Shown here piece after piece: positions 45,737-63,106 of a stretch of 64,000 nt of DNA. This stretch comes from an uncultured Caulobacterales bacterium. Its GTDB lineage: Bacteria; Pseudomonadota; Alphaproteobacteria; Caulobacterales; Maricaulaceae. Numbering within the stretch: the first letter of the stretch is position 1; each line of letters begins with the position of its first letter. The notes under the pieces were generated by a model. It searched no databases and had not been told where the DNA came from. It worked only from the letters and a program-made list of their open reading frames with translations. The position numbers and the translations under genes were made by a program. The stretch is from NCBI GenBank assembly GCA_937929915.1, contig CALFUN010000017.1, positions 62,001 to 126,000 on the forward strand. The letters are read 5' to 3'.

Positions 45737-46546
45737 TTAATTGGCAGGTTCGCTCATCGCTTCCATATTGGCATCAGCTTGGCGAATAGCCGCCTCAAGA
45801 CGCTCTTCTGCTGTTTGTAAGTTCTTCTTGGGATCTTGATAAAATGCGGTCAATTTCATGATTTGCAAAAACGCTTTATTTAAAAAACGGCCCCAAAACT
45901 TCATCGGACGATCAAAATCATAGAGTAAAATGACACGTTCCTCGTCCGTATCATTCCAAACTTCATGCTCAAACGTATCGTCAAAAACAAAAATCTCGCC
46001 TTCTTTCCAAGGCGTAATCGTGTCTTCCACGCGAATACGGCACTTCTCGCGGTCTTTTGGTATGATAAGACCCAGATGCGAGCGCAAAATACCCTTGGTC
46101 ACACCCTTATGGGCCGGGATATGATAACCGGGCGCAAGTATCGAAAACATCGCTGTTTGCAAGTTAGGCACTTTATCCAAAATATCCGCCGTTTTTGGCG
46201 CAAGCTTGACATTTTTTTCAAGGCGATTGCCAAAACCAAACAACACAAATGTTTTCCAATTTTGCTCCGTGGCAAGACGGTATTGATCTGGTGAAATTTC
46301 TTGAAATCCCGGGATAGCTTCGCGGAATTTTAAAACCTCGCGCGCTTCGGCCTGAATGATTTCCCAATTATCCGTAAACTCTTTGAGGAAAGGGAAATGC
46401 TCATTTGAGATTTTTGGTGTATCTGGCACCATAGATTGTTTGGCCTGAAAAGCCGCAATCTTGCGCACAAGCTTCTTGCCCGTCTTTTTCACAAAAGCGC
46501 GGCGCTTGTTTTTAAGGTGCTTTGGTTTTTCGACTGTCGTGGCCAT
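45737..46546 (-). CDS. Aspartyl/asparaginyl beta-hydroxylase-type dioxygenase (LpxO-like)
   Basis: The 269-aa protein is a 2-oxoglutarate/Fe(II) oxygenase of the family that includes LpxO, which 2-hydroxylates lipid A acyl chains. Core motifs are YHIPAHKGVTKGILRSHLGL (iron histidine and the arginine that binds 2-oxoglutarate) and VFDDTFEHEVWND with the second iron histidine. The N terminus is highly basic (KNKRRAFVKKTGKKLVRKI), which may favour a membrane surface. It lies 12 bp after cfa at the end of the sphingolipid region. Hydroxylation of a lipid acyl chain, in lipid A or ceramide, is likely; which one is open. Confidence 0.8.
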   Translation of the reverse strand: MATTVEKPKHLKNKRRAFVKKTGKKLVRKIAAFQAKQSMVPDTPKISNEHFPFLKEFTDNWEIIQAEAREVLKFREAIPGFQEISPDQYRLATEQNWKTFVLFGFGNRLEKNVKLAPKTADILDKVPNLQTAMFSILAPGYHIPAHKGVTKGILRSHLGLIIPKDREKCRIRVEDTITPWKEGEIFVFDDTFEHEVWNDTDEERVILLYDFDRPMKFWGRFLNKAFLQIMKLTAFYQDPKKNLQTAEERLEAAIRQADANMEAMSEPAN

Positions 46547-46558
46547 AAGGCTGCCTAT

Positions 46559-47767
46559 TTATGCCTTTTCTCTCTCAAGGTCGAGCATATAATCGCGCGT
46601 TATGGGTAGAGAATCCACCTCTTTTGCCAGTTGAATCTGGAAATTCATATGTTTGCCGTAACGGAATGAGAATTCCGATATGACAAGATAGAACTCCCAC
46701 ATACGGACAAATTCTGCGCCCATCATTTTTTCAATTTCATCACGGCGCGCTTGAAAACGGTGATCCCACTCCAAAAGCGTTTCGGCGTAATGCAAACGCA
46801 AAATCTCGCAATCCGTAACCCATAAGCCCTCTTTTTCAATCTGCGCAAATGTTTCCGATAAAGCAGGTGAATATCCGCCCGGAAAAATATAGCGCCGAAT
46901 CCATTTACCGGTTGTCCCTGGGCCGCCTTTACGGCCAATAGAATGAATAAGCGCGCAGCCATCATCTGTCAGCAAATCACGAATTGTGCCGAAATACTCG
47001 CGGTAATTGGTGATACCGACATGTTCAAACATACCAACAGACACAACACGATCAAATGGCCCCTCTACATCACGGTAATCTTGCAAACGAATATCAACAA
47101 GGTCTTCAAGTCCAGCATCCTTAACCCGCTGTACGGCGAGACTATGCTGGTCATGCGATAAAGTGACGCCAACAACCTTAACGCCGTGTTCTTTGGCAAG
47201 GTGCATCGCCATACCGCCCCAGCCGCACCCAATATCCAAAACCCGCTGACCTGCTTGGAGGTTAAGCTTGGCCGCAATATGACGTTTTTTGGCGAGTTGT
47301 GCTTCTTCTAAGGTTTCAATCCCCTCGCCCCAATATGCGCAGCTATATTGCATATCTTCGTCAAGAAACATGCGGTATAAATCATTGGATAGATCATAAT
47401 GGGCTTTGATATTTTTACTCGATTCAGCTTTTGAATTTCGTTGCTGCCAACGTTTAAACGGCTTTTGCGCTTTTTTAATGGCTTGGCGAAATGGCCCTTT
47501 ACGAAGTCCATCGCGATTATTTGCAAAGACTTCAAGAAACCCGCGTATCCCGCCGTCTTCGCAGATTAAACGGCCATCCATATAGGCCTCGCCCGCTATC
47601 AATTCGGGGTTTAACACAAGGGATTTATAAAGCGCTTTATCGGTCAAGCGAATTGTCGCGCTAGGCACGCCGCCCGGGCCGTAAACATGCGGCACTCCAT
47701 CGGCATCAATCAAAGTGAGTTGCCCCACTTTGACAAAGCGTTTCATCATTGCATCCAGTAATTTCAT
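46559..47767 (-). CDS. cfa: Cyclopropane-fatty-acyl-phospholipid synthase
   Basis: The 402-aa SAM-dependent enzyme methylenates cis double bonds in membrane acyl chains. The SAM motif is VLDIGCGWGGMAMHLA, with YSCAYWGEGIETLEEAQ and SVGMFEHVGITNYREYF downstream; the N-terminal domain (about 1-110) is the lipid-binding part. Length is normal. It is 149 bp beyond the LicC-like gene and 12 bp before the LpxO-like gene, so it could form a two-gene lipid-modification unit. Bacterial ceramides often have unmodified chains, so a phospholipid substrate is the safer guess. Confidence 0.9.
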   Translation of the reverse strand: MKLLDAMMKRFVKVGQLTLIDADGVPHVYGPGGVPSATIRLTDKALYKSLVLNPELIAGEAYMDGRLICEDGGIRGFLEVFANNRDGLRKGPFRQAIKKAQKPFKRWQQRNSKAESSKNIKAHYDLSNDLYRMFLDEDMQYSCAYWGEGIETLEEAQLAKKRHIAAKLNLQAGQRVLDIGCGWGGMAMHLAKEHGVKVVGVTLSHDQHSLAVQRVKDAGLEDLVDIRLQDYRDVEGPFDRVVSVGMFEHVGITNYREYFGTIRDLLTDDGCALIHSIGRKGGPGTTGKWIRRYIFPGGYSPALSETFAQIEKEGLWVTDCEILRLHYAETLLEWDHRFQARRDEIEKMMGAEFVRMWEFYLVISEFSFRYGKHMNFQIQLAKEVDSLPITRDYMLDLEREKA

Positions 47768-47916
47768 GATCGTGCCTTATCGCATCGGTTTGCTTGCGTC
47801 ATTTTTTCGCTGTGTATCACAGACGGCCTGCTCAATGCTATAAATGATAGCCGCTAGCAACTGTCAATTTAACGACGCTCAGATTTGGTAATATGCTTAT
47901 GCTTAAAACGAAGCGT

Positions 47917-48672
47917 TTAAACGATAGAAAACCGTTTTCTGGCCATATCACTATCACCAAAGAGGCGGCGGCAAATCTCATAATCTTCGGGCGTATCAAG
48001 CTCGGCCCATGTAGAGCCTTTAATATTTGTCGTATCGATTCTTTGTCCTGACTTCGCCAAGCCATCAATCGCGGATAGATACCAACTTTTTGTTCCATCT
48101 TCGAGCTTCATCAGACGCTCAAGTTCATTTTTAAAAATATCGCGGCCACCATTCATAAAACGCAACATTCCAATAGACTCGCCTTGTGTCGCGCGCGGTG
48201 TCAATGTTTTACTAATGGATAAGAGCAGACCATCAGATAATGTCACCTTCATATCATCGCCATCATAATGGCTTTTTTGGTCAATCGTGACCGTGATGTC
48301 TTTTGCAGAGGCATTTAGAACTTCATCCAATATGGCTGGGCTAAATAATGTGTCGCCATTAATAATCAAAAAATCTTCATTCATAGACTCACGCGCCATC
48401 CAACAAGAGGCTAAATTATCGGCAACTTGGAAAAATGGATTATAAAGCACATCCACTTTTGGGCCAGTTTGGCGCTTGTCAATTTCAGCGCGAACAAGAT
48501 GTTCATTAAATCCCGTTACAACCGTTGCCTGCTTAATACCTGCTTGAAACAATGTATCCAACTGTAACCCAAGTACCGTTGTCAAGCCGACAGGCAATAG
48601 GCACTTTGGCAAATCAGTTGTTAAAGGCAATAAGCGGGAACCACGCCCAGCTGAAAGTATAATAGCACGCAT
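47917..48672 (-). CDS. Nucleotidyltransferase of LicC/sugar-phosphate type
   Basis: The 251-aa protein has a classical NTP-transferase fold: signature GRGSRLLPLTTDLPKCLL at the N terminus, then NPFFQVADNLASCWMA and INGDTLFS with the metal-binding aspartate. The pattern resembles LicC, which activates phosphocholine with CTP, and related cytidylyltransferases for phospho-alcohols. The neighbouring CDP-alcohol phosphotransferase suggests that it could make the CDP-activated headgroup. Nothing in the sequence identifies the alcohol. It starts 53 bp after the HAD gene ends. Confidence 0.8.
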   Translation of the reverse strand: MRAIILSAGRGSRLLPLTTDLPKCLLPVGLTTVLGLQLDTLFQAGIKQATVVTGFNEHLVRAEIDKRQTGPKVDVLYNPFFQVADNLASCWMARESMNEDFLIINGDTLFSPAILDEVLNASAKDITVTIDQKSHYDGDDMKVTLSDGLLLSISKTLTPRATQGESIGMLRFMNGGRDIFKNELERLMKLEDGTKSWYLSAIDGLAKSGQRIDTTNIKGSTWAELDTPEDYEICRRLFGDSDMARKRFSIV

Positions 48673-48725
48673 AATATTTTCCGAAGAAGATGAAAATTAT
48701 AAACAAGCTCGTTTATTAGATTTTA

Positions 48726-49397
48726 TTATTGATTCCAATCAACGATCTCTATTCCTAAATCTGGCGCTGCATGACGCAGCCTTGGGTTGGGATTTACCGC
48801 TATCCCTATGTCACAAAAGGTAAACATTTCAATATCAGAATGACTATCCGAGTAAAAAGTGATAATTGTGTCAGATTGTTTCAAACCTGTATTTTCGTCT
48901 AATAACGGGCCCGTACGGTTCAATTTTTCTATGCCATAGCAATTTTTAGACGAAAAATCGGCTAAAAGTCGGTCATTTTCCCATTTCATATTTGTTGCCA
49001 CCCAATGTTTAATATCTAAACGCCGCGCAATCGCTTCAACGATAATATCAACGGCCGCACTCGCAATAATAATTATATCCCCAGCGTCTTTATGTGCGTT
49101 TAATGCCCGTATAGCGCCGGGGCGCAGTTTATTTGGCACTTCATTTTGTGCAAAATTTTCTGCAAGTCGCAGCATATTTGCACGCGTTTTACCTGCCATA
49201 CTCCAGCGTATCATGGCTTGTTTGACTTCAATGCGAGCAATACGGCCCTGTTTATAGAGCCATTGATGCCATGCCGCCGATACAAGTAATGGCCCCCAAA
49301 GCCATGGTTGCCACTTGACATTTTGAAACACAAAACGACCCCATGTTCCACGCTTCGTTAATGTATAATCCAAATCAAATATTGCGATATTTGGCAT
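48726..49397 (-). CDS. HAD-IB family phosphatase
   Basis: The 223-aa product has the HAD motif I IFDLDYTLTKRGTW, motif II in IIASAAVDIIVEAI, and motif IV YSDSHSDIEMF; the helical cap after motif I is of the phosphoserine-phosphatase-like (IB) type. Related enzymes act on phospholipid or phospho-amino-acid substrates. The start at ATG 49397 follows the flippase-fusion stop by 2 bp; an upstream TTG in frame at 49415 is less likely. In this operon it might remove a phosphate from a headgroup precursor or from a lipid-phosphate intermediate. Confidence 0.8.
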   Translation of the reverse strand: MPNIAIFDLDYTLTKRGTWGRFVFQNVKWQPWLWGPLLVSAAWHQWLYKQGRIARIEVKQAMIRWSMAGKTRANMLRLAENFAQNEVPNKLRPGAIRALNAHKDAGDIIIIASAAVDIIVEAIARRLDIKHWVATNMKWENDRLLADFSSKNCYGIEKLNRTGPLLDENTGLKQSDTIITFYSDSHSDIEMFTFCDIGIAVNPNPRLRHAAPDLGIEIVDWNQ

Positions 49398-49399
49398 GA

Positions 49400-51925
49400 T
49401 TAACGATCCATCCAACTCTGTAAGGCGTGATCTCGCCTCACGATGATAGCAATAATAAGGGCTAAAACATTAATAACTATGCAAAACCACACCCAAATCG
49501 CGATAGTATAAAATGCGTAAATGGCCGATAGCGGCCAAATCACTGTTAGCATCACACCTATCATGAAAATGAACATGTTCGGGTTTCGACGCGCAATAAA
49601 GAACCGAAGCGCAGAGTTAAACTTTGTCCAAACATGGATATGGAAGCCGCTAAGATGTAAAAACATGCCTTCGACAAGGCGGTCAACCACATAGCCAATC
49701 AATATCGCTATGAGCGCAAAAGTTAAAGGCTGTGCATTTAATGGCTCGGCTGCATCAATCATGCCGCCCAGCCCTATGAACCACGCATAGTACCAAAATG
49801 GCGGGTGAATCAAATCTATCCCGTGGTCATATATATTGCCCCACCACGAATAGGTCATTGTGGTGCGCGCTAACTTACCATCCACTGTATCAAGGAATGT
49901 CATCAACCATCCCGCCGTAAACCCTAAAACCCATTGCCCATGCCAAAAATAATACATTGCAAGACATGTTAAAATCAAACCAGCCGTTGTCACCATATTG
50001 GGCGTAAGCCGCAGCGCAGCACAAAGACGCGTGACATAGAAGGCAGGCACAGGCCAAAACCATTTCGTCACAAAATCCGTGATACCTTTATAAGAACTCG
50101 CAAATTGACGTTTCTGTAGCGCCGCAATCGATGTTTCATGCACATTCACCGCATAAGGAGGCTCGGTTTTGCGCAAGGCCTTATTGTAACCAGCATCAAG
50201 CTCTTGCGGCGTTACCCCCTTTATATCCAGTCCTGTTAAAGCGGATGCAGGTTGCCCAATCACTTGCTTGGCTAACTCTACAGAGGCGCCATTGACACCT
50301 ATGATCTGCCCTGCATTGATAAGCGCGGATTTATCGCGGCCAACAAAGGCTTTGGCAAGGGCAGAAGATAGCACCCATTCAATACCTATATGCAATATTT
50401 TAGAGCCGTTTAAATCTTGCGTCACGCCCGCTTTCTTAAAAGCGCGATGTTGCCATTCACGCAGCGGTAAACCCCAAAGTTTGGCCTGGCTCTCTCCGAT
50501 AAGGTTTAATCTGGGCGCCGCCTCCAAACCGAGTTGTGCCTGAGCCATATCACTAGGTAATTGTGTTTTTTTCACCTCTTGCAGCAATGTTCGCTTTGCC
50601 ATGACAACAACAAGGATAACAGCGGTTGCGTTGCCCAAAAGTGCCGCCCAGCCTGGGGCCATCTTTCCGATCACATTGGCAAAAACAAAAAACGACACAA
50701 TGTACATAACTACGCCAGAACCTCGCGCATAAATCGCCCGCTCGGGACGGTTCGCGGCATAAAATACAGGATAAAGCGGGGCAGCCACGCCTAAGAAAGC
50801 AGCCGCAGGGACAAGTAATGACAAAAGCGGGGCCGCAGCGGAATAGTCATCAGGGAAAACAATCCCTAAAAGGTCTGAGCCAAACACCATAATAATGGCA
50901 GACATTGACAGGCCCATAGATAACAAAAGAATAGCTGCGCGCGTAACAAGACGCCAAATCTTATCCACTTGGCCAAGCGACACCATTTTAGCCAGTTCAG
51001 GGTAAATCACTTGATCGAGCAGCACATAGCCTTCGGATAGAAGCTTTGCGATTTCTTCAGCAATTTTATACACCGCCACCCACGCCGCGCCGAAGACACC
51101 AAAAACTAAAAGCGCCGGTAGGTGCAGGCTAGACGCACCCAAAGTGGAATCCAGATTTGTTTTTACAACAAACCCCCAAACACCCTGCCCGGGCCTTCGG
51201 AAGTTCACCTTGGCTCTTATAACATGCTTGAGTAATTGCCTGCGTTTTAGCTCAATAATCGCCATGATGGGTATGTATGTATAAGCGCAAAAAGAGCCTG
51301 CAAACCACGCTATCACAAAGCCTTTAAGCCCAGCCTCCATATAAACTGCGATAACAACGCCAATTAAACGCACGGTTGGCATGATTAAGGATTTTATGGC
51401 CAGCACATGAAACTTATCAAACAGGCGAAATATGCCTATAGACGCCCCTCTTTGGCTCAGAAGAATTAAGATACAATACCACCCAATAAAAGGGCGTGAT
51501 GTCTCTATATTGGCTAGAACACCTTCAGGAATTAACCCCGGGAAAACAAGCGTGATGTAAGGAAACAAATAAAAGATCGAAACTGCAAAACTATACCCAA
51601 AGACAGCCGCGATTAAATCAAGTTTAATACCAAAATTCAGGATCTTAGCTAAGCCCTGATAGTCATTATCTTTCAGATTATCTGTCCCAAAGCGAATAAT
51701 AGATTGCCAGCTTTGAAATGTGGCAACTTCGGAAAAGAACAGCATGTAAATATGCAGAAATAATACAATCCCCAAGACTAACGGATCCAATGTTTTCGCC
51801 GCTATGGTCAGGCTACCAAAGCCTAAAGCGACACCTAAAATTTTAGACCCCAGCATCAAACCTGTATTGGCTGTGACGCGTTGCTCAACAGTTTTACTGG
51901 AGTTAATCGATAGATCTGGTGTCAT
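49400..51925 (-). CDS. Fused flippase (MATE/Wzx-like) and CDP-alcohol phosphotransferase
   Basis: One 841-codon frame holds at least three parts. Residues 1 to about 450 are a polytopic membrane region of about 12 segments that resembles polysaccharide/lipid flippases. About 475-600 is a soluble region that resembles a degenerate nucleotidyltransferase core (GESQAKLWGLPLREWQHR, then AGVTQD). Residues about 620-841 are a CDP-alcohol phosphotransferase with the complete motif D679-x2-D-G-x2-A-R687-x8-G696-x3-D700-x3-D704. The phosphotransferase part would put a phospho-alcohol onto a lipid hydroxyl, and the flippase part would move the product. It overlaps the upstream NTase by 4 bp. No frameshift or stop occurs in the chain. 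Confidence 0.85.
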   Translation of the reverse strand: MTPDLSINSSKTVEQRVTANTGLMLGSKILGVALGFGSLTIAAKTLDPLVLGIVLFLHIYMLFFSEVATFQSWQSIIRFGTDNLKDNDYQGLAKILNFGIKLDLIAAVFGYSFAVSIFYLFPYITLVFPGLIPEGVLANIETSRPFIGWYCILILLSQRGASIGIFRLFDKFHVLAIKSLIMPTVRLIGVVIAVYMEAGLKGFVIAWFAGSFCAYTYIPIMAIIELKRRQLLKHVIRAKVNFRRPGQGVWGFVVKTNLDSTLGASSLHLPALLVFGVFGAAWVAVYKIAEEIAKLLSEGYVLLDQVIYPELAKMVSLGQVDKIWRLVTRAAILLLSMGLSMSAIIMVFGSDLLGIVFPDDYSAAAPLLSLLVPAAAFLGVAAPLYPVFYAANRPERAIYARGSGVVMYIVSFFVFANVIGKMAPGWAALLGNATAVILVVVMAKRTLLQEVKKTQLPSDMAQAQLGLEAAPRLNLIGESQAKLWGLPLREWQHRAFKKAGVTQDLNGSKILHIGIEWVLSSALAKAFVGRDKSALINAGQIIGVNGASVELAKQVIGQPASALTGLDIKGVTPQELDAGYNKALRKTEPPYAVNVHETSIAALQKRQFASSYKGITDFVTKWFWPVPAFYVTRLCAALRLTPNMVTTAGLILTCLAMYYFWHGQWVLGFTAGWLMTFLDTVDGKLARTTMTYSWWGNIYDHGIDLIHPPFWYYAWFIGLGGMIDAAEPLNAQPLTFALIAILIGYVVDRLVEGMFLHLSGFHIHVWTKFNSALRFFIARRNPNMFIFMIGVMLTVIWPLSAIYAFYTIAIWVWFCIVINVLALIIAIIVRRDHALQSWMDR

Positions 51926-52677
51926 GACTGACGCGCTTTTAAGATGGTTTCCACCAGCTCCAAATCGCTGGGTTTATCGACATCAATCGCGGCCTCAGCG
52001 ATTGGAATTAGAATAGGTGTAGCCTTAATACCAATACGCCGGCCTGCATAATCAAAAGCGCCTTGCAGGCTCAAACGCCCCAAAGCATATCGCAGGCCAA
52101 CACCAAAGCCTATTTTTCGCGCAAGTTTTAAAGGCTGTTTACGCAAATGCTGCGCATCCTTCCAAAACTCAATCGCCGCGCAGCCTTTATCATTGGCCAC
52201 ATAAAATAAATTACAGCCAGACACCGCCATATCTGAAAATTTTAAATATGTGCGTTTTGTTTCAGGATAACGCGGCGAAATAACGGCTCTGCTCGCCAAA
52301 CCCACGCAAAAATCAGCCCCGCTCTCTTGCGCGGCTTGAACGAAATAATTGATCATCTCTGGCGTCAGTAACGCATGGTCGCAGGTTGTCACAAGACATG
52401 GCAGCTCAACCCCACTTGCCAATGCTAATGATACACTATCAGCTGGCCCTGCCCCATTTGGCGCTTGGGTTAACCGTATATCATCGCCTGCACTGTAGCC
52501 ACTGATATGGAAAGGCTGTTTGAGGCTCGCCATCTCTAGAGCGCATAAAACATATTGGAGCATTTTCTGGCCATGAATGGGCACATCAGCTTTATGAGAG
52601 ACGCCTGCATGGGCACATAAAGGATCCACAACTCCTTCGCGCTGGCCAGCGAGTATTAAAACCGAAACATCAGGCAT
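51922..52677 (-). CDS. MobA-like nucleotidyltransferase
   Basis: The 251-aa protein resembles MobA-type NTP transferases: an N-terminal LILAGQREG where MobA has the G-loop, then SHKADVPIHGQKMLQYVL, and TTCDHALLTPEM with the metal aspartate. The C-terminal half is longer than MobA and unfamiliar. It shares one base with the stop of the ceramide-synthase-like gene and overlaps the flippase fusion by 4 bp, so all three are translated together. A headgroup-activating role for the CDP-alcohol phosphotransferase is inferred; a molybdopterin role seems unlikely here. Confidence 0.75.
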   Translation of the reverse strand: MPDVSVLILAGQREGVVDPLCAHAGVSHKADVPIHGQKMLQYVLCALEMASLKQPFHISGYSAGDDIRLTQAPNGAGPADSVSLALASGVELPCLVTTCDHALLTPEMINYFVQAAQESGADFCVGLASRAVISPRYPETKRTYLKFSDMAVSGCNLFYVANDKGCAAIEFWKDAQHLRKQPLKLARKIGFGVGLRYALGRLSLQGAFDYAGRRIGIKATPILIPIAEAAIDVDKPSDLELVETILKARQS

Positions 52678-54531: not shown

Positions 54532-54630
54532 AGACTGATACCTTTACACACACATTGCGCACAAAGCGCTTTCTATCTTCATATGGATAGTTACGGGCAC
54601 TTAGTAAAGGTACGCTTACAGATATTTAAT

Positions 54631-55842
54631 ATGGGAAGACTTAACCAATATCTCTTTAAAAAAGCGGCGATTAGCATTGGCGGGTTAGTGGTTTTTGCTT
54701 GCTGCGTGCTACTTTTAGAGCGTCTGTTGCGGATTTTTGAAGTTGTTACAACTTCAACAAACCCTGCCAGTGATGCCTCCACTATGATTATTAATTTGCT
54801 GCCATATTACCTGAGTATGGCCGTTCCTATGGCACTTTTACTTGGAATCATCATCACAGTCGACCGATTTAGCCGCTCTAGCGAATTAACCGCAGCGCTC
54901 GGGGCGGGTGTGTCTTTGACCCATATGACAAAGCCCTTTGTCTATCTTGCGATTATGCTCGCCATTCTAACGGTTTTCATTGAGGGCATATTACAGCCTG
55001 TTGGCCGGTATAATTACCGCAAAGTTGAAAGCCACATCAAACAAACCGCTTTTACAGCCGCCCTGCGGGAAGGCACATTTACACAAGTCGGAAATCGGAC
55101 ATTTTTTGCAGGAACAGATTTACCCGGCGCAGGGATTGGGCCGATTTTCATCTATGAACAAGTGATGGATGAACAAAAACAAACGGGTTTTCGCATTACA
55201 ACGGCGAATGAAGGCCAGCTTATTGTGCGAGAAAAGACAAATGAACCGGTCCTGCAACTTTCCGAAGGCAGCGGATTTCAAATTATAGATAATAATAAAC
55301 TCGACGGAAATATACGCTTTGGCGGCTCGACAATCGCAGGTGTCGCGAATGTAAAATCTTTCCGTATTCGCGGAGAAGATGAGCGCGAAATGACATCGCT
55401 GGAATTACTCAACAATCGAAATGGAGATCTTTTTCCTGCTGTCGAACCTAACGTCAATAATGCAATGTTACATTTACGCATCGCTAAATCGGTTGTCTTA
55501 TTGATCTTACCATTTATCGCTGTACCTTTTGGCTTAAATTACGGACGAAATCCGTCATCGGCGGGTATATTTGTAGGGGTTGTCTTTTTGGTGTCCCTAC
55601 AAAAAGCTTTGGAATTTGCACAGTCTTTAGGAGCCGCAGGTAAAATCCCGCCTTGGTCTGGCATATGGGGCATTGTTCTCGCTATTGCAATTTTTGCGCT
55701 TTATATTTTCCGTAAAAGCGCCTTTAAAATGGGCCAACCTCCTTTAACATCCATTTCGCATTGGATGACCCATATCGCTGGCAAATTTAGAGCTTTTCTG
55801 GCGAAATTAAGACCGCAGCCAGAAAGGATCGAGAATGTTTAA
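54631..55842 (+). CDS. lptF: LptF/YjgP-type permease subunit
   Basis: The 403-aa membrane protein belongs to the LptF/LptG (YjgP/YjgQ) family, whose known members form the transmembrane part of the ABC extractor that pulls LPS from the inner membrane. Three helices at the N terminus, a periplasmic beta-jellyroll (about 125-260) and three C-terminal helices are seen; the family motif LIKRYIF-like NQYLFKKAAISI and PMALLLGI are present. I chose the ATG at 54631 by homology; the frame is open to 54583. The gene lies in a sphingolipid locus, with no lptD, surA, pdxA or rsmA nearby, so it may be a paralogue for another lipid. Confidence 0.82.
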   Translation: MGRLNQYLFKKAAISIGGLVVFACCVLLLERLLRIFEVVTTSTNPASDASTMIINLLPYYLSMAVPMALLLGIIITVDRFSRSSELTAALGAGVSLTHMTKPFVYLAIMLAILTVFIEGILQPVGRYNYRKVESHIKQTAFTAALREGTFTQVGNRTFFAGTDLPGAGIGPIFIYEQVMDEQKQTGFRITTANEGQLIVREKTNEPVLQLSEGSGFQIIDNNKLDGNIRFGGSTIAGVANVKSFRIRGEDEREMTSLELLNNRNGDLFPAVEPNVNNAMLHLRIAKSVVLLILPFIAVPFGLNYGRNPSSAGIFVGVVFLVSLQKALEFAQSLGAAGKIPPWSGIWGIVLAIAIFALYIFRKSAFKMGQPPLTSISHWMTHIAGKFRAFLAKLRPQPERIENV

Positions 55843-56914
55843 ATTCGCGACTTATCTGTCTAAGATGTTCATATCTACATGGCTCATTGTCGTGTTTGGC
55901 TTTCTTATCTTGATTGGGCTGCTCGATAGCCTGGCCAATGGCGGAGACATTGTAGCTAGCGGCGAAGGTTTCCCAGGCACATTTAAATATATGTATCTAC
56001 GCGCCCCTGTTATTTTTGATAGAATTTTTGTTTTCACCCTCGTGGTCGCGATTTTATTGACCTATGTGAAGCTTATACGCCAGCATGAACTTGTCGCCCT
56101 GCTTGGCCTTGGCATTTCTGTACCTAAGCAAATCATGCTCCTAACCCCATCCGTTGTCGGGGCAGCCTTTCTATCTGTAACCTTTATCGACATCGCTATG
56201 GCGCCGGCCGTACGCTCATTACAAACTTGGGGTATTGGTGAGTATAAGATAAAAAATATTACGGCTGAAAACCCGCTTTGGCTCGAAGATAATGGACGTA
56301 TTATCAAAGCCAACACACGTTATAATTATAACACATTGGGGAATATCGAAATTTTCGAACGCAATAACACAGGTGAAGTCAAAAGTGTCATTTGGGCCGC
56401 TCGCGCGACATATATGAATGAGAATTGGCGGCTGGACGGCGTACGCACCATCACTGTCGAAGGGTCAAATGGGGAAAGCCGCAATGTTGAAGACCCTGTT
56501 GAATCTTATATGTGGATCACGCAACAAACGCCAAAATCCATTGCTCGCCTTGCCGCCGAACCTCGCGACTTATCTCTGGCGGAGATGCGTACATTTAGCC
56601 AGCGCGGTAATTCAGGCTCCAAGCCTCGCTTTGCCTATAGTTTCTGGCACGCCCACCGTATGACAAGACCCTTAGCGGCTTTAATATTGCTCCTATGCTG
56701 TGCAGGATTGATGCAGCGCACAGGCCGCGAGGACACAGGCGACAAAGCCCTCATTTTGGGCATTACACTTGGGTTTATTTTTCTGATTATTGACGGGGCT
56801 ATGGCGACATTTGCCGCTTCTGGCGGATTATCTGTCCTGCCCGCCATTGCCATGCCGCTCTTTGTCTTTGCGCTTCTGGGAAGCTTTCTGGTTATACGTA
56901 CAGAAAGCCTGTAG
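55835..56914 (+). CDS. lptG: LptG/YjgQ-type permease subunit
   Basis: The 359-aa protein pairs with the preceding gene, which it overlaps by 8 bp. It starts with FKFATYLSKMFISTWLIVVFG, the family pattern, and has six transmembrane segments with a periplasmic domain (about 120-265). With LptF it would form a channel that LptB energises; no lptB lies in the window. It is followed 5 bp later by the lipid kinase gene, which ties it to sphingolipid rather than LPS genes. Confidence 0.82.
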   Translation: MFKFATYLSKMFISTWLIVVFGFLILIGLLDSLANGGDIVASGEGFPGTFKYMYLRAPVIFDRIFVFTLVVAILLTYVKLIRQHELVALLGLGISVPKQIMLLTPSVVGAAFLSVTFIDIAMAPAVRSLQTWGIGEYKIKNITAENPLWLEDNGRIIKANTRYNYNTLGNIEIFERNNTGEVKSVIWAARATYMNENWRLDGVRTITVEGSNGESRNVEDPVESYMWITQQTPKSIARLAAEPRDLSLAEMRTFSQRGNSGSKPRFAYSFWHAHRMTRPLAALILLLCCAGLMQRTGREDTGDKALILGITLGFIFLIIDGAMATFAASGGLSVLPAIAMPLFVFALLGSFLVIRTESL

Positions 56915-56919
56915 CCTTC

Positions 56920-57849
56920 ATGACGGCATTGTTTATTGTCAATAACTCCTCCCAAGGCGTCGCTCGCAAAGGGTCAGTTCTGGCCCCTATCGCAAAGCGG
57001 CACGCGATTGAAGTTTACCACATAAATGATTTCACTGCCCTACCTCAAAAAGTATCTGAAACGCTCCAAAACCGCACAAGCAAAGTCTTTATTGAAGGCG
57101 GAGACGGAACCGTTCAAGGCGTATTAAGCGAATTTCTACGCCAATCAAACATTACGGCTAATCTGCCCAAATTTGCCCTTATCGCAGGCGGCATGACCAA
57201 CCAAGTGGCCAAAAATATCGGACTTAAACCCGCTTTAATTCAAGCAGCATTAAAAGATGAGTTATCTACAATTCAAATACCGCTTTTAAACATTCAAACA
57301 CGCAGTTCAGACTCGCAAACCATGCAGACTTATTACGGATTTTTATTCTCAACAGGCGCGGTACCAATGGTAACAGAATATACGAAATCTAAATTACACA
57401 AGCGCGGCATTGGCGGCTCGCTGGCTGTTGCAGGCGGCATCCTAAAAGGTATCTCCAAAAATAATGGCGATGTTTTATACCCGACCCCGATTAAATTGCA
57501 GCTCAGTCACCCTAATGTGAGTCTCGATAAGCCCCATATCGGTACAGTTTTGACGACCTTACCGAGCCTAATTCTGGGATTTGATCCCTTTTGGGGAACA
57601 GATAACGCCCCGTTGCGCCTGACCTATGTTGATGAAGCTTATCGTGGGCTGTACCGCAATGTCGCAAGCCTTTGGGCCGGTAGAAAGCACAAAGATCGCA
57701 GCCAAGACGGGCTACAAAGCTGGAATATCGACCGTATTGACTATGAATATAATGGCCCTTGCGTTTTAGATGGCGAACCAATTAAAAGTCCGTCAGGACA
57801 TTTTACAATTACGGCCAGCCAAGCTCTCACCTTTCTGCAAGCGCGGTAA
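56920..57849 (+). CDS. cpgB: Diacylglycerol-kinase-fold lipid kinase, ceramide-kinase-like
   Basis: The 309-aa protein has the DAGK catalytic fold: VFIEGGDGTVQGVL (nucleotide-binding GGDGT at 60-64) and the GGMTN loop at 90-94, followed by C-terminal strands with CVLDGEPI. In Caulobacter a ceramide kinase (CpgB) of this distinct bacterial type lies next to serine palmitoyltransferase and phosphorylates ceramide in the path to ceramide phosphoglycerate. Position and fold make this the likely homologue. It starts 5 bp after lptG. A plain lipid kinase for diacylglycerol is the alternative. Confidence 0.7.
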   Translation: MTALFIVNNSSQGVARKGSVLAPIAKRHAIEVYHINDFTALPQKVSETLQNRTSKVFIEGGDGTVQGVLSEFLRQSNITANLPKFALIAGGMTNQVAKNIGLKPALIQAALKDELSTIQIPLLNIQTRSSDSQTMQTYYGFLFSTGAVPMVTEYTKSKLHKRGIGGSLAVAGGILKGISKNNGDVLYPTPIKLQLSHPNVSLDKPHIGTVLTTLPSLILGFDPFWGTDNAPLRLTYVDEAYRGLYRNVASLWAGRKHKDRSQDGLQSWNIDRIDYEYNGPCVLDGEPIKSPSGHFTITASQALTFLQAR

Positions 57850-57856
57850 TCACGCT

Positions 57857-58774
57857 ATGAACACCGCGATTTATGATATTATAAGTTCCGAGACATTAGA
57901 CCCGCCCGCGCGCGTCACAGCCGTCATAGACATTATAAAAACCCGCCATGCAGACCGCATAGAAGCATTTATCTATTATGGCTCCTCTTTACGAGAATTG
58001 GATAATCCAGAAAAAATGCTCGACTTTTATGTTCTGGTTGATAGCTACCGCAAAACCCATAAAAACCCGATACGAGCGGTGTTAAACAAACTCATTCCGC
58101 CTGCAGTATATTACCTTGAGCACACCAATGAAGGTAATATTGTAAGCACATGTAAATACTCTATTTTATCTCTATCTGATTTTGAAAAAAAATGCGGTAA
58201 AGCGGCATTATTATCGCAAGTTTGGGGACGATTTTCACAGCCTTGTATCTTACTAGGCGCGCGCAATACCACCGCGCGAGACCGAATTTTCAAAGCCCGT
58301 GTGAAAGCTGTTGAATATATGGCCGCGCAGACCGCCCCGCTTATCGAGGCCAAGACACGGGCCGCAGACTTTTGGGGGCGCGGGTTTTATGAGAGTTACC
58401 GCACGGAAATCCGCCCCGAAAGCTCTGTTGGCCGCGCGGCTGAAATCGTAGCTAAGTTTGAAACACGCTATAATGCCCTCACCGCAGCACTTTACGGCGC
58501 GCCTGATGAGAATGGATTTTTTGATATACCGCAAAGCAATCACGGCGCCTGCAGGCGTAAATGGTGGCTCAGGCGCTGTATCGGCAAACCTGTCGCCGCT
58601 ATCCGTATCATTAATAGCGCGGCTACATTTGATGGCGGGCTAGATTATATTCTGCGCAAGGTCAAAAACCACTCTGGCGTCAGCTTGCACCCAACCAAAT
58701 TCCAGCGCAAACACCCCGTAATCTGCTCACCCATACTAGCTTGGAAATTATGGCGGATGGGGGCATTTGGGTAG
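57857..58774 (+). CDS. Tam41-like nucleotidyltransferase, probable headgroup enzyme
   Basis: The 305-aa product has a nucleotidyltransferase core with the pattern of Tam41/CDP-diacylglycerol synthase: YYGSSLRELDNPEKMLDFYVLVD (G42-S-S, then D57 and D62), followed by TH-NPIRAVLNKLIPPAVYYLE. The ATG at 57857, 7 bp after the kinase, is preferred over an upstream in-frame one inside it. Tam41 makes CDP-DAG in mitochondria; here, following a ceramide kinase, the substrate may be ceramide phosphate, giving a CDP-activated lipid. CpgC of Caulobacter occupies a like position, but I cannot confirm homology. Confidence 0.65.
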   Translation: MNTAIYDIISSETLDPPARVTAVIDIIKTRHADRIEAFIYYGSSLRELDNPEKMLDFYVLVDSYRKTHKNPIRAVLNKLIPPAVYYLEHTNEGNIVSTCKYSILSLSDFEKKCGKAALLSQVWGRFSQPCILLGARNTTARDRIFKARVKAVEYMAAQTAPLIEAKTRAADFWGRGFYESYRTEIRPESSVGRAAEIVAKFETRYNALTAALYGAPDENGFFDIPQSNHGACRRKWWLRRCIGKPVAAIRIINSAATFDGGLDYILRKVKNHSGVSLHPTKFQRKHPVICSPILAWKLWRMGAFG

Positions 58775-58912
58775 GATACGAGCCAAGCTTACAACATAAC
58801 AACCGATGTGAGTAAATCTTAGAAAATGAACGTTAACTCAGTGCTTTACATTGAGGTGTCGGTTTAACGGGTCAATGCCATAGCAGATTAAAGCACGCCA
58901 GACCAATCGGCC

Positions 58913-60145
58913 CTACTCTGCCGCTTGCATCTTTGCGGCCATGGCCTGCATCATGCTGCCTTGATTATCTTTCAAACCTTGGAAGGCAGACAGGATGGCA
59001 TTGATGTCCGTTTCGCTATGGGCCGCGGAGAGGCTAATCCGTAACAGGCTAGAACTTTGCGGGGTACCAGGCGGAACAGCAAGGTTCACATAAACGCCAT
59101 TCTCCATCAGCCAATTCCACTCCATAGCCGCAACAGCCTCATTCGGACGGCGCACGGCAATCACAGGGCTAGCTGCTGCGCAAAGATCATAGCCCATCTC
59201 TGACAGGCCTTTATGGAGCTGTTCGGCACGGCTTGTGAGGTTGTCTCGCAAATAACCGCCTTGTTTAATCTTACTGACCGCAGCCAGAGCCGCAGACACA
59301 TTGGACGGCGTTGGCGAGGCCGTAAACATATAGGGGCGCATAACTTTGCGTGTGATTTCAAATTCAGGGTGAATAGAGGCACAAAATCCGCCAATCGAAG
59401 CTAAGGATTTTGAAAATGTGCTTGAGATAAAATCGACTTTATCAAGAACGCCCTGTGCCTCGGCAATCCCGCAGCCCGTTGGGCCAAACACGCCATAGCT
59501 ATGGGCTTCGTCAATATAGAGATAGCCGCCATGACGGTGCGTTACATCTAAAAATTCATCAATCGGGGCAATATCGCCAAACATGGAATACATGCCTTCA
59601 ATGACAACCAAGGCGTTACCGCCTTCAATCTCGCCTTGGCGGCGTAATCGCTTGTCCAAATCTTCGGGTGAATTATGACGGAAACGAATTGTCGAAGCGT
59701 TTGTTAATCGTGTACCGTCAATAATGCAGGCATGGGCATCGGCGTCCATAAAGATGACATCCTTATCGCCTGCAAGACCTGAAATCGCTGCAAGATTTGT
59801 TTGATACCCCGTTGAAAACACAATGCAGCTTGGCATACCCAAATGCTCGGAAATCGCTTTTTCAAGATCGACATGCTCCGTATATGTACCATTGGCAATC
59901 CGCGAACCTGTTGTACCTGTACCGTGATTATCAATCGCGGTTTTGGCCGCTTCAACACAATCTGCATCAAAAGTTAGGCCTAGGTAATTATTTGTCCCCG
60001 CCAGCAAGATTTCACGATTGCCAATCCGTCCGCGTGTCGCGCTGATAATATCATCAAATTTCACCCCTAGCGCATCTTGGCCGATTTTCATCATCATATC
60101 GACGCGCGCCTGTAGCGGGGCATATTTATCAAAAAGCTGTGTCAC
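58913..60145 (-). CDS. spt: Serine palmitoyltransferase
   Basis: The 410-aa alpha-oxoamine synthase condenses serine with an acyl thioester to 3-ketosphinganine, the first step of sphingolipid synthesis. The PLP lysine is K246 in STFSKSLASIGGF; LAGTNNYLGLTFD, HGTGTTGSRIANG, FMDADAHACIIDG and IDEAHSYGVFGPTG are family marks. The ACP gene 12 bp upstream distinguishes this from KBL or BioF, as do the ceramide genes around it. Bacterial SPT is a soluble homodimer with no membrane helix, which agrees with this sequence. The 138 bp downstream (58775-58912) lie between convergent genes. Confidence 0.9.
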   Translation of the reverse strand: MTQLFDKYAPLQARVDMMMKIGQDALGVKFDDIISATRGRIGNREILLAGTNNYLGLTFDADCVEAAKTAIDNHGTGTTGSRIANGTYTEHVDLEKAISEHLGMPSCIVFSTGYQTNLAAISGLAGDKDVIFMDADAHACIIDGTRLTNASTIRFRHNSPEDLDKRLRRQGEIEGGNALVVIEGMYSMFGDIAPIDEFLDVTHRHGGYLYIDEAHSYGVFGPTGCGIAEAQGVLDKVDFISSTFSKSLASIGGFCASIHPEFEITRKVMRPYMFTASPTPSNVSAALAAVSKIKQGGYLRDNLTSRAEQLHKGLSEMGYDLCAAASPVIAVRRPNEAVAAMEWNWLMENGVYVNLAVPPGTPQSSSLLRISLSAAHSETDINAILSAFQGLKDNQGSMMQAMAAKMQAAE

Positions 60146-60157
60146 GCAATGAGTTCC

Positions 60158-60412
60158 TTAATTTTCAGCAGTCAATTCTTTAATTGCATTGCCAAGTTCC
60201 CCAACCGTTTTAATGTCAGACACCATCTCCATTGGAATAGAAATATCATAATGGTCTTCTAGTCCCATAATAATATCAAATACAGCCGTACTGTCGACCT
60301 CAAGGTCAGACATAATACCGCTAGAGCGGTTAATTGGATGATTTTTCGGATTATATGGTTTTAGCAATTCACAAATCTTATTGTAAATTTCATCATCGCT
60401 AGGGTGGGACAT
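60158..60412 (-). CDS. Acyl carrier protein for sphingolipid synthesis
   Basis: The 84-aa protein has the phosphopantetheine site S41 in LEVDSTAVFDIIMGLED, with helices typical of ACPs. It lies between spt and the SDR gene, 12 and 6 bp away, and corresponds to the dedicated ACP of the Caulobacter locus that feeds acyl chains to SPT. It is distinct from general fatty-acid AcpP, whose motif is usually DSLD/E. Confidence 0.88.
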   Translation of the reverse strand: MSHPSDDEIYNKICELLKPYNPKNHPINRSSGIMSDLEVDSTAVFDIIMGLEDHYDISIPMEMVSDIKTVGELGNAIKELTAEN

Positions 60413-60418
60413 GACGGC

Positions 60419-61345
60419 TTAATCTTTCTTATAAGAGGCGGCGGTAATGCGCAAAGCCTCTATCATTGGCGTGGGATTATCAATTTCATCGGCGCTTGTC
60501 CAATCAGGATAACGAAATTCCCGCAATTTCCCGAGGGTTAAATGCCCAACCCCAAAGGCTCTTGAGCTAACAGACGTTATCGCGGCAACGGGCTTCATAA
60601 TAAATATCGGTATAGGCAATATGCGCACAGGGCGCTCTAGGGCTTGCGAAGCAAAGGCCGCAAAGTCTTCCCACGACATTTTAGAAATCGTGGACGGGGA
60701 AACTATCCTGTCATCATAGGCCCCATTCACAGCATTTCCAACAATATCTCGTGTGAGATCATTCACATAAGTCATTGATAGATTGATATTTTTCCACTCA
60801 CCCCCCGCGACAGGCAATAGACCTTTTTTCAACATAGAAAATATTGGCCTAGTTGCCATATCATTCGGGCCAAATATAGCGGGCGCGCGAATAATGGCGA
60901 GCTTCCCGTAAGTATAGGCTTGCTTAACCGCAAGCTCGCCCGCATATTTTGACGCAGAATAGCCGCTTAATTCTGGTTGCCGCGCAGCGATTGAGGACAA
61001 TAAAATAAAGCGCGAGACTTTGGCAGTCTGCGCAGCTTGCGCGATTTGCCTCGCTCCCTCCGCATTAATAGCCATAAACTCAGCAAGCGTGCGGGCTTTG
61101 ATAAGCCCTGCCAGATGAATGACGCAATCAGTATCTTTGGCCCAGCCTGATAGCGCATTATGAAAATCACTTTGCAAATCACCTTGAAATAGCGTCAGGG
61201 CAGGATGCGCGCGCAGCTCAGGCGGTAGCTTATTGGGTGAACGGATAAGGGCATTCACTTTATGCCCTTTACCGAGCAGTGCTTTGAGTAAATGCTGACC
61301 TAAAAACCCTGTTGCACCTGTAAGAGCAATTTTCACCTTAGCCAA
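60419..61345 (-). CDS. cerR: Extended SDR, probable ceramide reductase
   Basis: The 308-aa NAD(P)-dependent epimerase/dehydratase-type enzyme has the Rossmann motif ALTGATGFLGQHLL and the Tyr-x3-Lys pair in GYSASKYAGELAV. In Caulobacter the corresponding gene, in the same order after the ACP, encodes CerR, which reduces the keto group of the ceramide (3-ketoceramide to dihydroceramide). Length fits. The order ligase-SDR-ACP-SPT on one strand, with gaps of 6-12 bp, supports one transcript. Confidence 0.82.
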   Translation of the reverse strand: MAKVKIALTGATGFLGQHLLKALLGKGHKVNALIRSPNKLPPELRAHPALTLFQGDLQSDFHNALSGWAKDTDCVIHLAGLIKARTLAEFMAINAEGARQIAQAAQTAKVSRFILLSSIAARQPELSGYSASKYAGELAVKQAYTYGKLAIIRAPAIFGPNDMATRPIFSMLKKGLLPVAGGEWKNINLSMTYVNDLTRDIVGNAVNGAYDDRIVSPSTISKMSWEDFAAFASQALERPVRILPIPIFIMKPVAAITSVSSRAFGVGHLTLGKLREFRYPDWTSADEIDNPTPMIEALRITAASYKKD

Positions 61346-61354
61346 CCAATGATG

Positions 61355-63106
61355 TTACCCTGCGCCGTGGGTGACAATTTGCAAAGGCGTTTCATTTTGC
61401 AGGTCAATGATCTCCCCTTTAAGGTATTTCGCCTTAACGCGCGCGCGGGAGAGCTTACCTGACGAAGTAATAATCATTGTGCTGCGCGGTACGAGCTGTA
61501 ATTTCACAGGCACGCCAACTTCAAGCCGGATCGCCCCCATAACAGTCTTGTAAATCTCATCAAGCAGTTTTGGATCACGTGTCCGGCATTCGAGCAACAG
61601 CATAATCTCTTTTTCATCGCCCACACCGCCCATAGCAAAAGAACAGGCTCGCCCGCAGCGATGCGGCGCGGCAGCTTGCGCGGCCCATTCAATATCTTGC
61701 GGCCAAATATTACGGCCATGCCATAAAATAAGATCTTTAAAACGGCCCGTTACGACAAGTTGATTATCGAGCCAATAACCCAAATCTCCTGTATCAAGCC
61801 AACCATCTTTACTAAATGAGGCCTCTGTTGCTTGGCTATTGCGGAAATACCCCGGCGAAACGGACGGGCCTTTCAGGCAAATGCGTCCGACTTTATTCTC
61901 TTCTAGGACATTATCATCAAAATCGCGAATTTCGATCGTATGATCGGGCAAAACCGTGCCGCAAGCCACAAATGTACGGCGGTCTTCAAGCGGCGTTATA
62001 TCTGTTGCCGTAACAGCTTCCGATGTACGCGTATAACGGCCCATATCAATCGTATGTTTTAATAAGCCCTGTCCCAAAGGCGCAAATGTCGCCGCCAATG
62101 TTGTTTCCGCCAGACCGTAACTTGGCGTAAATGCGCCTTGAGAGAAGCCCATTGTGCCAAATAACTCTTGAAACTCCGTCAAAGGCTCTGGACGCACCAT
62201 ATCACCACCAATACCGGCCGCCCGCCAGCTTGAGAGATCAAGCTCGCGGTCCTCGCGCCAGCGGCGCACACATAGCTCATATCCAAATGTCGGTGAATAA
62301 GACAAAGTCCCTTTATGATCGGAAATCAGTTGCAACCAAGAAATCGGACGACGCGTGAAATCTTGGGGATCGATATAATCAACACTAAGCTGGCACATGA
62401 GCGGTGTGAGCATAAAGCCAATCAGGCCCATATCGTGATAGAGCGGCAACCAGCTTGTCGCGCGGTCACTTTCAACTACTTTTAGGCCATGCTTGGAAAT
62501 ACCATGGCAATTTGCGGATACAGAAGCTTGTGTACCGATAATGCCTTTGGGCGAACTTGAGCTACCTGATGAATATTGAATATAGCACAGATCATCTGCG
62601 CCAAATGGGCGAATCGATGACCCCATTGGCAAATTATCCAGCTCATCAAATGTCATGACGGGAATCGCTTGATCGTTTAGCGCAGAACTCATAATCGGTT
62701 CCATTGTCGCTGGGCAAAATAGCGCGTGGAAATCTCCCGTATCGGCCATACGCTGTAATTGGCGCTCATATGATCCGCGCCCGCCAAGCGTTACAGGCAG
62801 CGGCAACGGCGCAGGTACAAGCCCCGCATATTGGCAGGCAAAAAATACAATAGCAAAATCAGGTGTAGAGACAGCCGCAAGGCCTATACGGGCGTTTTTA
62901 GGAGCAAATTTGACCAAACGCTTGGCTAAAACCAACGCCTTTTCACGCAAATCTTTATAGGTCAGAACCGTTTTAAGCTCGGCCTTGCCTGTAAAATAAT
63001 TCAGACCTGTTTCACACGTCGCAGCGTAATCTAAGGCATCACATAAGGTTGGAAAATCGCCATATCGAATAGCTTTGCCGCGCGCAATAGGTGTTGGCTC
63101 GATCAT
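61355..63106 (-). CDS. Acyl-activating enzyme (ANL superfamily, fatty-acyl-AMP/ACP ligase)
   Basis: The 583-aa enzyme is an adenylate-forming ligase: P-loop YIQYSSGSSSSPKGIIG (175-191), then YGLAETTLA, the LDTGDLGYW signature and the hinge GRFKDLILWHGRN. The overall length and the insertion before the hinge are like fatty-acyl-AMP ligases, which load acyl-AMP onto ACP without CoA. It is first in the minus-strand operon before cerR, ACP and spt, so it probably activates the acyl chain for the dedicated ACP, or for ceramide synthase. Confidence 0.85.
   Translation of the reverse strand: MIEPTPIARGKAIRYGDFPTLCDALDYAATCETGLNYFTGKAELKTVLTYKDLREKALVLAKRLVKFAPKNARIGLAAVSTPDFAIVFFACQYAGLVPAPLPLPVTLGGRGSYERQLQRMADTGDFHALFCPATMEPIMSSALNDQAIPVMTFDELDNLPMGSSIRPFGADDLCYIQYSSGSSSSPKGIIGTQASVSANCHGISKHGLKVVESDRATSWLPLYHDMGLIGFMLTPLMCQLSVDYIDPQDFTRRPISWLQLISDHKGTLSYSPTFGYELCVRRWREDRELDLSSWRAAGIGGDMVRPEPLTEFQELFGTMGFSQGAFTPSYGLAETTLAATFAPLGQGLLKHTIDMGRYTRTSEAVTATDITPLEDRRTFVACGTVLPDHTIEIRDFDDNVLEENKVGRICLKGPSVSPGYFRNSQATEASFSKDGWLDTGDLGYWLDNQLVVTGRFKDLILWHGRNIWPQDIEWAAQAAAPHRCGRACSFAMGGVGDEKEIMLLLECRTRDPKLLDEIYKTVMGAIRLEVGVPVKLQLVPRSTMIITSSGKLSRARVKAKYLKGEIIDLQNETPLQIVTHGAG

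Follow-up and report, generated by a model that had tools for sequence, protein, structure and literature searches.

What lipid would a bacterium make, and how would it be carried outward, if a flippase and a headgroup enzyme of its sphingolipid locus were one and the same protein? The question is raised by positions 45737-63106 of the DNA analysed here, a 64,000-nucleotide stretch (the window) from an uncultured Caulobacterales bacterium. These positions hold 16 intact genes in three tightly packed runs, in which neighbours are separated by -16 to +149 bases, and one of the genes joins a MurJ/Wzx-type flippase and a CDP-alcohol phosphotransferase in a single protein of 841 amino acids (aa), which is a new architecture. 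In gene content the block is unexceptional for a pathway already on record; what sets it apart is this architecture, which is real, and a likewise new pattern of exchange. In Caulobacter crescentus, the 17-gene cluster CC_1168-CC_1152 serves the synthesis of ceramide (di)phosphoglycerate (PMC11324152; this paper, PMC12275187 and PMC11087976 are cited from excerpts). Thus, a cluster for ceramide diphosphoglycerate (CPG2) is itself already known; what is new is the fusion, the swapping of the flippase with the headgroup enzyme, a link between CC_1167 and TagF-like transferases, and an OlsC-like gene in the cluster in 18 of 18 genomes of the genus.

The genome of the window is a metagenome-assembled genome (MAG) of 2.49 Mb in 39 contigs, 91.7% complete, with the window on contig C17. 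The host is a relative of Hellea (Robiginitomaculaceae), its best named kin; Hellea balneolensis DSM 19091 is 62% identical over the best fusion segment. Comparisons were made with 18 genomes of the same genus, 24 of the family and 385 of the class (the last set counting the window's own genome), and with 80 phosphotransferase loci, which are the best 80 kept from a scan; fused copies may exist outside them.

Architecture and distribution of the fusion

An AlphaFold2 (AF2) model of the fusion (pLDDT 91.5, pTM 0.77) was matched by Foldseek to MurJ, MATE and WzxE and, separately, to AF2299, PIPS and IPCT-DIPPS; the table of matches is without residue ranges, and the halves were assigned from aligned length and Pfam. 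Among the matches listed, the MOP flippase fold was found with a probability of 1.00 and a TM score, normalised by target, of 0.56-0.75. Residues ~1-455 share this fold with MurJ, WzxE and MATE, but the window protein has no Pfam match there and adds a C-terminal phosphotransferase. The latter shares its fold with AF2299, PIPS and IPCT-DIPPS and also the full motif D-x2-D-G-x2-A-R-x8-G-x3-D-x3-D, complete at residue 679, which we take to be the CDP-alcohol phosphotransferase signature. Unlike those enzymes, it sits behind a flippase, and its acceptor is probably a ceramide lipid. A PDB sequence search with the fusion gave choline/ethanolamine phosphotransferases as the best matches (E ~0.001). 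Furthermore, lysine and arginine are placed unevenly in the flippase half of the model (2, 3, 6, 0 and 1 in the even loops between helices, 0 in each odd loop), and because they occur only in even loops, a cytoplasmic C-terminus is favoured.

Among the 385 class genomes, only the window's own gives a match over the full 1-841 residues; in the others each frame has one half. Within the genus, 11 of 18 genomes carry the phosphotransferase, in 10 of the 11 in frame with the flippase (G388 matching from residue 70 onward). In the eleventh, G396, each half stops at the end of a contig. Elsewhere in the family, G406 has two adjacent genes, and the pair in G402 is interrupted by an in-frame stop at the junction. 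Among the best 80 loci, both halves lie in one frame in 20 open reading frames from 16 genomes besides the window's; the carriers are, by title or kinship, Hellea, the window's genus or uncultured Caulobacterales, and they include Hellea balneolensis DSM 19091 (L094). A literature search, judged by title, gave no published flippase-phosphotransferase fusion.

Proposed exchange of a headgroup cassette

The gene order of the three runs is AasR-CerR-ACP-Spt (minus strand), LptF2-LptG2-CpgB-CpgC (plus) and DUF2141-CerS-NT2-fusion-HAD-CpgD-CFA-OlsC (minus). In the list below, percentages are identities to locus L139 of Caulobacter vibrioides DSM 9893. This strain differs from that of PMC11324152, and CC numbers were assigned to L139 here from gene order and the descriptions in the excerpt of that paper.

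61355..63106, minus: aasR-like fatty acyl-AMP/ACP ligase, 583 aa; NCBIfam PRK09192 670.3 bits (cut-off 600); 45%
60419..61345, minus: cerR, short-chain dehydrogenase/reductase (SDR)-type ceramide reductase, 308 aa; Pfam Epimerase, GATGFLG and YSASK motifs; 34%
60158..60412, minus: acpR, dedicated acyl carrier protein (ACP), 84 aa; PP-binding, DS site at residue 40; 44%
58913..60145, minus: spt, serine palmitoyltransferase, 410 aa; NCBIfam NF047599 541.8 bits (cut-off 500), TFSKS and DEAHS motifs
57857..58774, plus: cpgC, Tam41-like nucleotidyltransferase, 305 aa; AF2 pLDDT 91.4, Tam41 6ig2/6ig4 the top PDB matches
56920..57849, plus: cpgB, ceramide-kinase-like lipid kinase, 309 aa; DAGK_cat, GGDG at residue 60; 28%
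55835..56914, plus: lptG2; LptF_LptG Pfam above cut-off, second pair in the genome; no match at L139, matches at other Caulobacter loci
54583..55842, plus: lptF2; LptF_LptG Pfam above cut-off, second pair in the genome; 26%
53920..54531, minus: DUF2141 protein with a signal-peptide-like N-terminus (by eye); PF09912 69 bits
52677..53828, minus: cerS, bacterial ceramide synthase, 383 aa; 38% and synteny
51922..52677, minus: NT2, CC_1153-like nucleotidyltransferase, 251 aa; NTP_transf_3; 42%
49400..51925, minus: flippase::CDP-alcohol phosphotransferase fusion, 841 aa; flippase ~1-455, cpgA-like ~466-841, motif at residue 679
48726..49415, minus: HAD-IB phosphatase (HAD); TIGR01490 above cut-off
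47917..48672, minus: cpgD, putative CTP:phosphoglycerate cytidylyltransferase, 251 aa; GRGSR, LPK and NGD motifs; 49%
46559..47767, minus: cyclopropane fatty acid (CFA) synthase; CMAS Pfam 317.6 bits
45737..46546, minus: OlsC/LpxO-like acyl hydroxylase, 269 aa, a candidate ceramide acyl hydroxylase; PF05118 176 bits

Between NT2 and the CFA and OlsC-like genes lies a slot that, across the 18 same-genus genomes, holds a flippase and HAD together with one of three enzyme sets. These are the phosphotransferase with CpgD (11 of 18), a TagF-like transferase of ~400-440 aa, here called TagL (5 of 18: G386, G389, G390, G395 and G399), and an ATP-grasp protein (PF07478) with a second NT2-like nucleotidyltransferase (2 of 18: G398 and G401; L066 12234-14050 and L067 11460-13348). 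The types were named by gene content before trees were made. CpgD (at least 49% identity) is present in 13 of the 24 family genomes, namely in 13 of 14 with the phosphotransferase and in none of the 10 without it. Homologues of the ATP-grasp protein occur in 70 of 385 class genomes at E <=0.001, 3 of these below 1e-30; the gene content of this third slot type suggests an undescribed headgroup in its two genomes.

In the trees of both the flippase and HAD, four TagL-type genomes form one clade (bootstrap/SH-aLRT 100/99 and 97/99, respectively); the fifth, G395, was omitted from all trees, its contig being only 7.2 kb. This clade is rejected by the approximately unbiased test (p-AU) for CpgC (6.7e-10), LptG2 (0.0024), LptF2 (1.8e-83), DUF2141 (3.3e-4), CerS (4.0e-5; no row for L067), NT2 (0.0136), OlsC (1.9e-4) and Spt (5.9e-104, with three TagL rows; no row for L070), and it is also rejected by five unlinked marker proteins at the lptCAB locus (p 2.3e-5). 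In the trees of the joined cluster and of the markers, G386 pairs with G399, and G389 and G390 group with the two ATP-grasp genomes. A single clade of the fused type on the marker tree is neither shown nor rejected (p 0.063). Given that flippase and HAD unite the TagL-type genomes in a clade that eight neighbours and the unlinked markers reject, the flippase appears to move together with the headgroup enzyme; we infer from these trees that flippase, HAD and terminal transferase have been exchanged as a unit between lineages of the genus. If the cassette has been exchanged in this way, flippase and headgroup are probably matched to each other.

These results have led to a model toward which we lean by a small measure. 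In this model, the sphingolipid headgroups of the genus would be set by a swappable flippase-HAD-transferase cassette that acts as a matched unit, one version of it fused, on a constant backbone of ceramide synthesis and Lpt-type export, and two of its three versions could make undescribed headgroups. Second flippases are also found in the genus: in G391, G394, G396 and G400 one stands tail to tail with a TagL paralogue, and those of G391, G393 and G394 fall beside the TagL-type ones (78/72) in a placement that is not firm. Apparent TagL::flippase fusions in GC-rich Caulobacter loci were rejected, these being merely long open frames, none with both domains.

The most serious alternative is that the flippase serves ceramide itself, either bringing ketoceramide to a periplasmic CerR or returning ceramide for phosphorylation, and that its link to the transferase is a mere convenience. 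In Caulobacter, CerR is located in the periplasm, and Spt and CerS in the cytoplasm (PMC11087976), so that some lipid must cross before the kinase step. In addition, in 17 of 42 loci the genes of flippase and AasR share a strand and stand at most 700 bases apart. Against this, the flippase is retained in the 14 of 18 same-genus genomes that have no CerR orthologue, and its tree tracks the transferase type, not the ceramide genes. Thus, this alternative is rather unlikely.

Orthologues of CerR (at least 54% identity) were found only in G000, G386, G387 and G399. In the other 14 (G385, G388-G398, G400 and G401), the best match is 24-28% identical with E of 5e-16 or weaker, or there is none (G392), with short pieces reaching 35%; near-complete genomes (G389, G393, G397, G398 and G401) are among those in which no orthologue was found. 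Where the operon is seen (L055-L061, L066, L067 and L071), cerR is missing, and spt, the ACP gene and cerS are kept where read. Lineages without the orthologue may make keto-ceramide or use another reductase. The fusion, and flippase trees that follow the headgroup enzyme and not the ceramide genes, point to the flippase as a carrier of the finished lipid, which is testable in a cultured strain. CPG2 supports the survival of Caulobacter without lipopolysaccharide (LPS) (PMC12275187, excerpt); its transport is left uninvestigated in the excerpt of PMC11324152, and no test of it was seen among the literature matches listed.

A less probable view is that the conflict between the trees reflects shared selection on flippase and HAD for a TagL-type lipid, or simply tree error. 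HAD is short (223 columns), its tree is largely unresolved (12 of 22 inner branches open), and the trees of the joined cluster, the neighbouring genes and the markers are quick searches. Nevertheless, two adjacent and unrelated proteins concur with bootstraps of 97-100, and nine other tests, including that of the unlinked markers, disagree with their grouping, so that we regard exchange of the cassette as the better account and this one as improbable.

The proposed pathway and its counterpart in Caulobacter

The Pfam/NCBIfam content of the locus comprises Spt, ACP, SDR, acyl-AMP ligase, lipid kinase, LptF/LptG, two nucleotidyltransferases, HAD-IB phosphatase, CDP-alcohol phosphotransferase, DUF2141, CFA synthase and an Asp/Asn-hydroxylase-family protein. 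CerS, CpgC and the flippase gave no Pfam match above cut-off in the scan of the locus proteins; these putative identities hold by synteny and 29-38% identity to L139 and, for the flippase and CpgC, additionally by predicted fold. Both Lpt proteins fall short of the NCBIfam equivalog cut-offs (LptF 198.7 vs 230 bits, LptG 164.6 vs 240 bits).

According to the excerpts, CC_1168-CC_1152 contains the ceramide genes, six headgroup genes examined by mutants and thin-layer chromatography, and LptC2/F2/G2 with a flippase as presumed transport genes (PMC11324152), and CpgD has been purified, assayed and found to make CDP-glycerate (PMC12275187). The roles of Spt, CerR, CerS, CpgB and CpgD were thus shown by others in Caulobacter. 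By tblastn, 12 window proteins or halves match L139 with synteny at 26-49% identity, with 34-48% for aasR, cerR, acpR, spt and cerS and 28-49% for the CpgA-D homologues and CC_1153 in the same cluster. What the two clusters have in common, then, is five ceramide genes, CpgA-D-like genes, a CC_1153-like nucleotidyltransferase, LptF2/LptG2 and a flippase in one region. They differ in that the window fuses the flippase with CpgA, has HAD instead of a CC_1158-like gene, and adds the OlsC-like hydroxylase, the CFA synthase and the DUF2141 protein; LptG2, HAD, DUF2141, CFA and OlsC have no match at L139. In the window's genome (a 91.7% complete MAG), no match to TagL (CC_1167) and no second LptC (LptC2) were found, there being one LptC gene, and the window has no calcineurin-like CC_1158 gene.

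An initial annotation of this DNA had described a complete path that starts with serine and acyl chains, yields a ceramide with a headgroup and leads on to export. The genes that it named are indeed present, intact and tightly packed, and their content supports such a path well; DUF2141, the cyclopropane synthase and the OlsC-like hydroxylase go beyond its list. It had also held the wider headgroup and export set to be largely undescribed and fuller than that of Caulobacter. The first of these views does not stand, since the set corresponds to CC_1168-CC_1152 as given in the excerpts of PMC11324152 and PMC12275187; nor is the set fuller, given that LptC2 and CC_1167 were not found in the genome, nor CC_1158 in the window.

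It is quite likely that the block is a CPG2-type outer-membrane sphingolipid assembly line. AasR would charge the dedicated ACP with an acyl chain, which Spt would condense with serine; CerS would attach the second acyl chain, and CerR would reduce the keto group. CpgB would then phosphorylate ceramide, and CpgC would probably activate ceramide 1-phosphate with CTP. CpgD would make CDP-glycerate, from which the phosphotransferase half, at the cytoplasmic face, would add the last headgroup unit, with HAD taking off a phosphate. The flippase half, with the phosphotransferase tethered to its cytoplasmic C-terminus, would carry the completed lipid through the inner membrane; its transfer to the outer membrane would fall to LptFG2 together with the single LptC/LptA/LptB set found in the genome. 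An acyl chain would probably be hydroxylated by the OlsC-like enzyme. The order of the steps, the substrate and direction of the flippase, the substrate of the hydroxylase and the lipid product are those that we infer; what the analysis itself shows are the identities of the genes, the fusion, the folds, what the slot contains and the conflict among trees.

For CpgC, the best fold match is Tam41 (6ig2, E 6.7e-8, TM ~0.5, 15% identity). It thus shares a fold with the Tam41 CDP-diacylglycerol (CDP-DAG) synthase, and CTP-dependent activation of a lipid by CpgC is predicted from the model; the fold is in keeping with the CDP-DAG-synthase InterPro domain that the excerpt of PMC11324152 mentions. 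Alignment places the start of the gene at 57857, probably the correct position, rather than at 57770, where the listed frame opens.

It has also been considered that the headgroup is inositol phosphate, with phosphotransferase and HAD acting as phosphatidylinositol-phosphate synthase and phosphatase, as for the inositol phosphoceramide of Bacteroides. Below the NCBIfam cut-offs, the fusion matches PIPS (1.7e-9) and CpgD matches inositol-1-phosphate cytidylyltransferase (2.2e-14), and PIPS and IPCT-DIPPS are among the fold matches of the fusion. This is very unlikely: myo-inositol-1-phosphate synthase (PF01658) was not found in the window's 91.7% complete genome or in 22 of 23 relatives, and its lone carrier, G407, lacks the fusion as well as any CpgD-like gene (best partial matches 31-34%). 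Moreover, CpgD is 49% identical to its counterpart at a Caulobacter locus whose family makes CDP-glycerate (PMC12275187, excerpt), with the nucleotidyltransferase motifs kept, a likeness from which its substrate is predicted. That the fusion is an assembly artefact is scarcely credible, for although fused copies come mostly from MAGs and the pair is interrupted in G402 and two genes in G406, a single frame holds both halves in 16 other genomes, including that of Hellea balneolensis DSM 19091.

Several points weigh against a CPG2-type line with a matched cassette. The lipid product of the organism is deduced from its genes, and the window is one MAG, though the record of Hellea balneolensis DSM 19091 carries the same fusion. 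The Caulobacter phosphotransferase is required for CPG2 and not for ceramide phosphoglycerate (CPG); since it is dispensable for CPG, attachment of the first glycerate has no assigned enzyme, either there or here. Among the 80 phosphotransferase loci, a flippase match is present in 42 and lies at most 700 bases away on the same strand in only 19, fused copies included, so that tethering is not required. Outside the genus, TagL is co-resident in 18 of the 80, and the two are not alternatives there. NT2 rejects the TagL-type clade weakly (p-AU 0.0136). Finally, no CpgD accompanies the phosphotransferase and flippase of G402, the OlsC-like gene of that genome is located away from the cluster, and the fused loci L099 and L101 have no OlsC-like gene beside the cluster.

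CC_1167, phosphatase, hydroxylase and neighbouring genes

In the excerpt of PMC11324152, the sole relevant paper among the matches listed in a locus-tag literature search, CC_1167 is called probably unrelated, yet it has a cofitness of 0.57 with spt. The L139 gene in its place is 38% identical to a same-genus TagL and has a 4-base overlap with the flippase gene. The same-genus TagL members of L068 and L073, the only two tested, reach 24.5 and 33.8 bits for PF04464 (cut-off 22.1). The Caulobacter (L139) and Hyphomonas (L116) members gave no Pfam match at E 0.01, and a PDB profile match of TagL to the TagF-like polymerase Cps3D (E 0.06) is below significance. Judged by sequence, CC_1167 is related to a TagF-like transferase, the link to PF04464 running through the two same-genus members. 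Of the 385 class genomes, 10 have a strong TagL match, and 9 of these 10 belong to a set of 30 genomes, the window's own not counted, that match the flippase or the phosphotransferase strongly. This co-occurrence (Fisher 3e-10 on 384 genomes) is uncorrected for kinship, with 6 of 7 genera in agreement, and its E cut-offs, 1e-15 and 1e-40, were set after the match lists had been viewed. The link reopens a gene that had been set aside as unrelated, in a pathway with unassigned transferase steps.

Across 81 records (80 loci and the window), HAD is present in 31, the window included, a CC_1158-like gene in 42, both in none and neither in 8. HAD was rejected as an orthologue of CC_1158, the L139 gene in that place being a calcineurin-like phosphoesterase. 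According to the excerpt of PMC11324152, CPG2 in Caulobacter does not require CC_1158, and Hyphomonas neptunium is without this gene; the locus of Hyphomonas polymorpha (L116) carries HAD. Thus, HAD, never alongside a CC_1158-like gene in the records examined, may be the phosphatase of some clusters that lack CC_1158.

The OlsC-like hydroxylase (PF05118) is present in full in the cluster in all 18 same-genus genomes and is also found in Roseovarius loci L114 and L115; no PF05118 protein was found in Caulobacter vibrioides or 13 other controls. It shares PF05118 with OlsC and LpxO but lies far below both NCBIfam equivalog cut-offs (226.5 vs 450 and 135.7 vs 500 bits) and sits in a sphingolipid cluster. 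In Caulobacter, this hydroxylation is reported for the DesA-type CC_0202 (PMC11324152, excerpt), for which the OlsC-like protein may stand in as an unrelated enzyme, with a substrate surmised from its sequence and setting. Among the literature matches listed for OlsC and ceramide, no paper on a bacterial ceramide hydroxylase was found by title.

In 38 of 64 testable loci, a DUF2141 gene precedes LptF2 by at most 2.5 kb, and its product is a candidate periplasmic partner. It is apparently outside the Caulobacter 17-gene set, yet it is present at Caulobacter loci L130, L141 and L142; equating it with CC_1157 was dropped, because the L139 gene so placed encodes a HIT domain. At L178 (contig C7 of G000, 5788-6936), a 382-aa LptC whose C-terminal part resembles LptA is followed by separate lptA and lptB genes, and LptC frames of ~384-434 aa recur across the genus. 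A second LptC was rejected because both LptC matches of the window's genome fall in that one 382-aa frame. Complete replacement of LPS was also rejected: a search of 12 genomes found LpxC in every one, and the window's genome has another LptFG pair at a different site. PADLOC gave no match for four cluster proteins.

At L126 (6025-8313) and L158 (5894-9364), LptF2 and LptG2 matches fall in one open frame and are possibly fused; the L158 frame continues into CerS, so that both may be chance long frames. Directly upstream of aasR, at 63314-64000 and cut by the window end, lies an ELFV-family dehydrogenase gene, whose nearest model, tryptophan dehydrogenase ScyB, scores 232.6, far below the cut-off of 600. 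At L063 (1893-3494) and at loci L110-L113, a gene for a GMC-type oxidoreductase stands just after CpgD.

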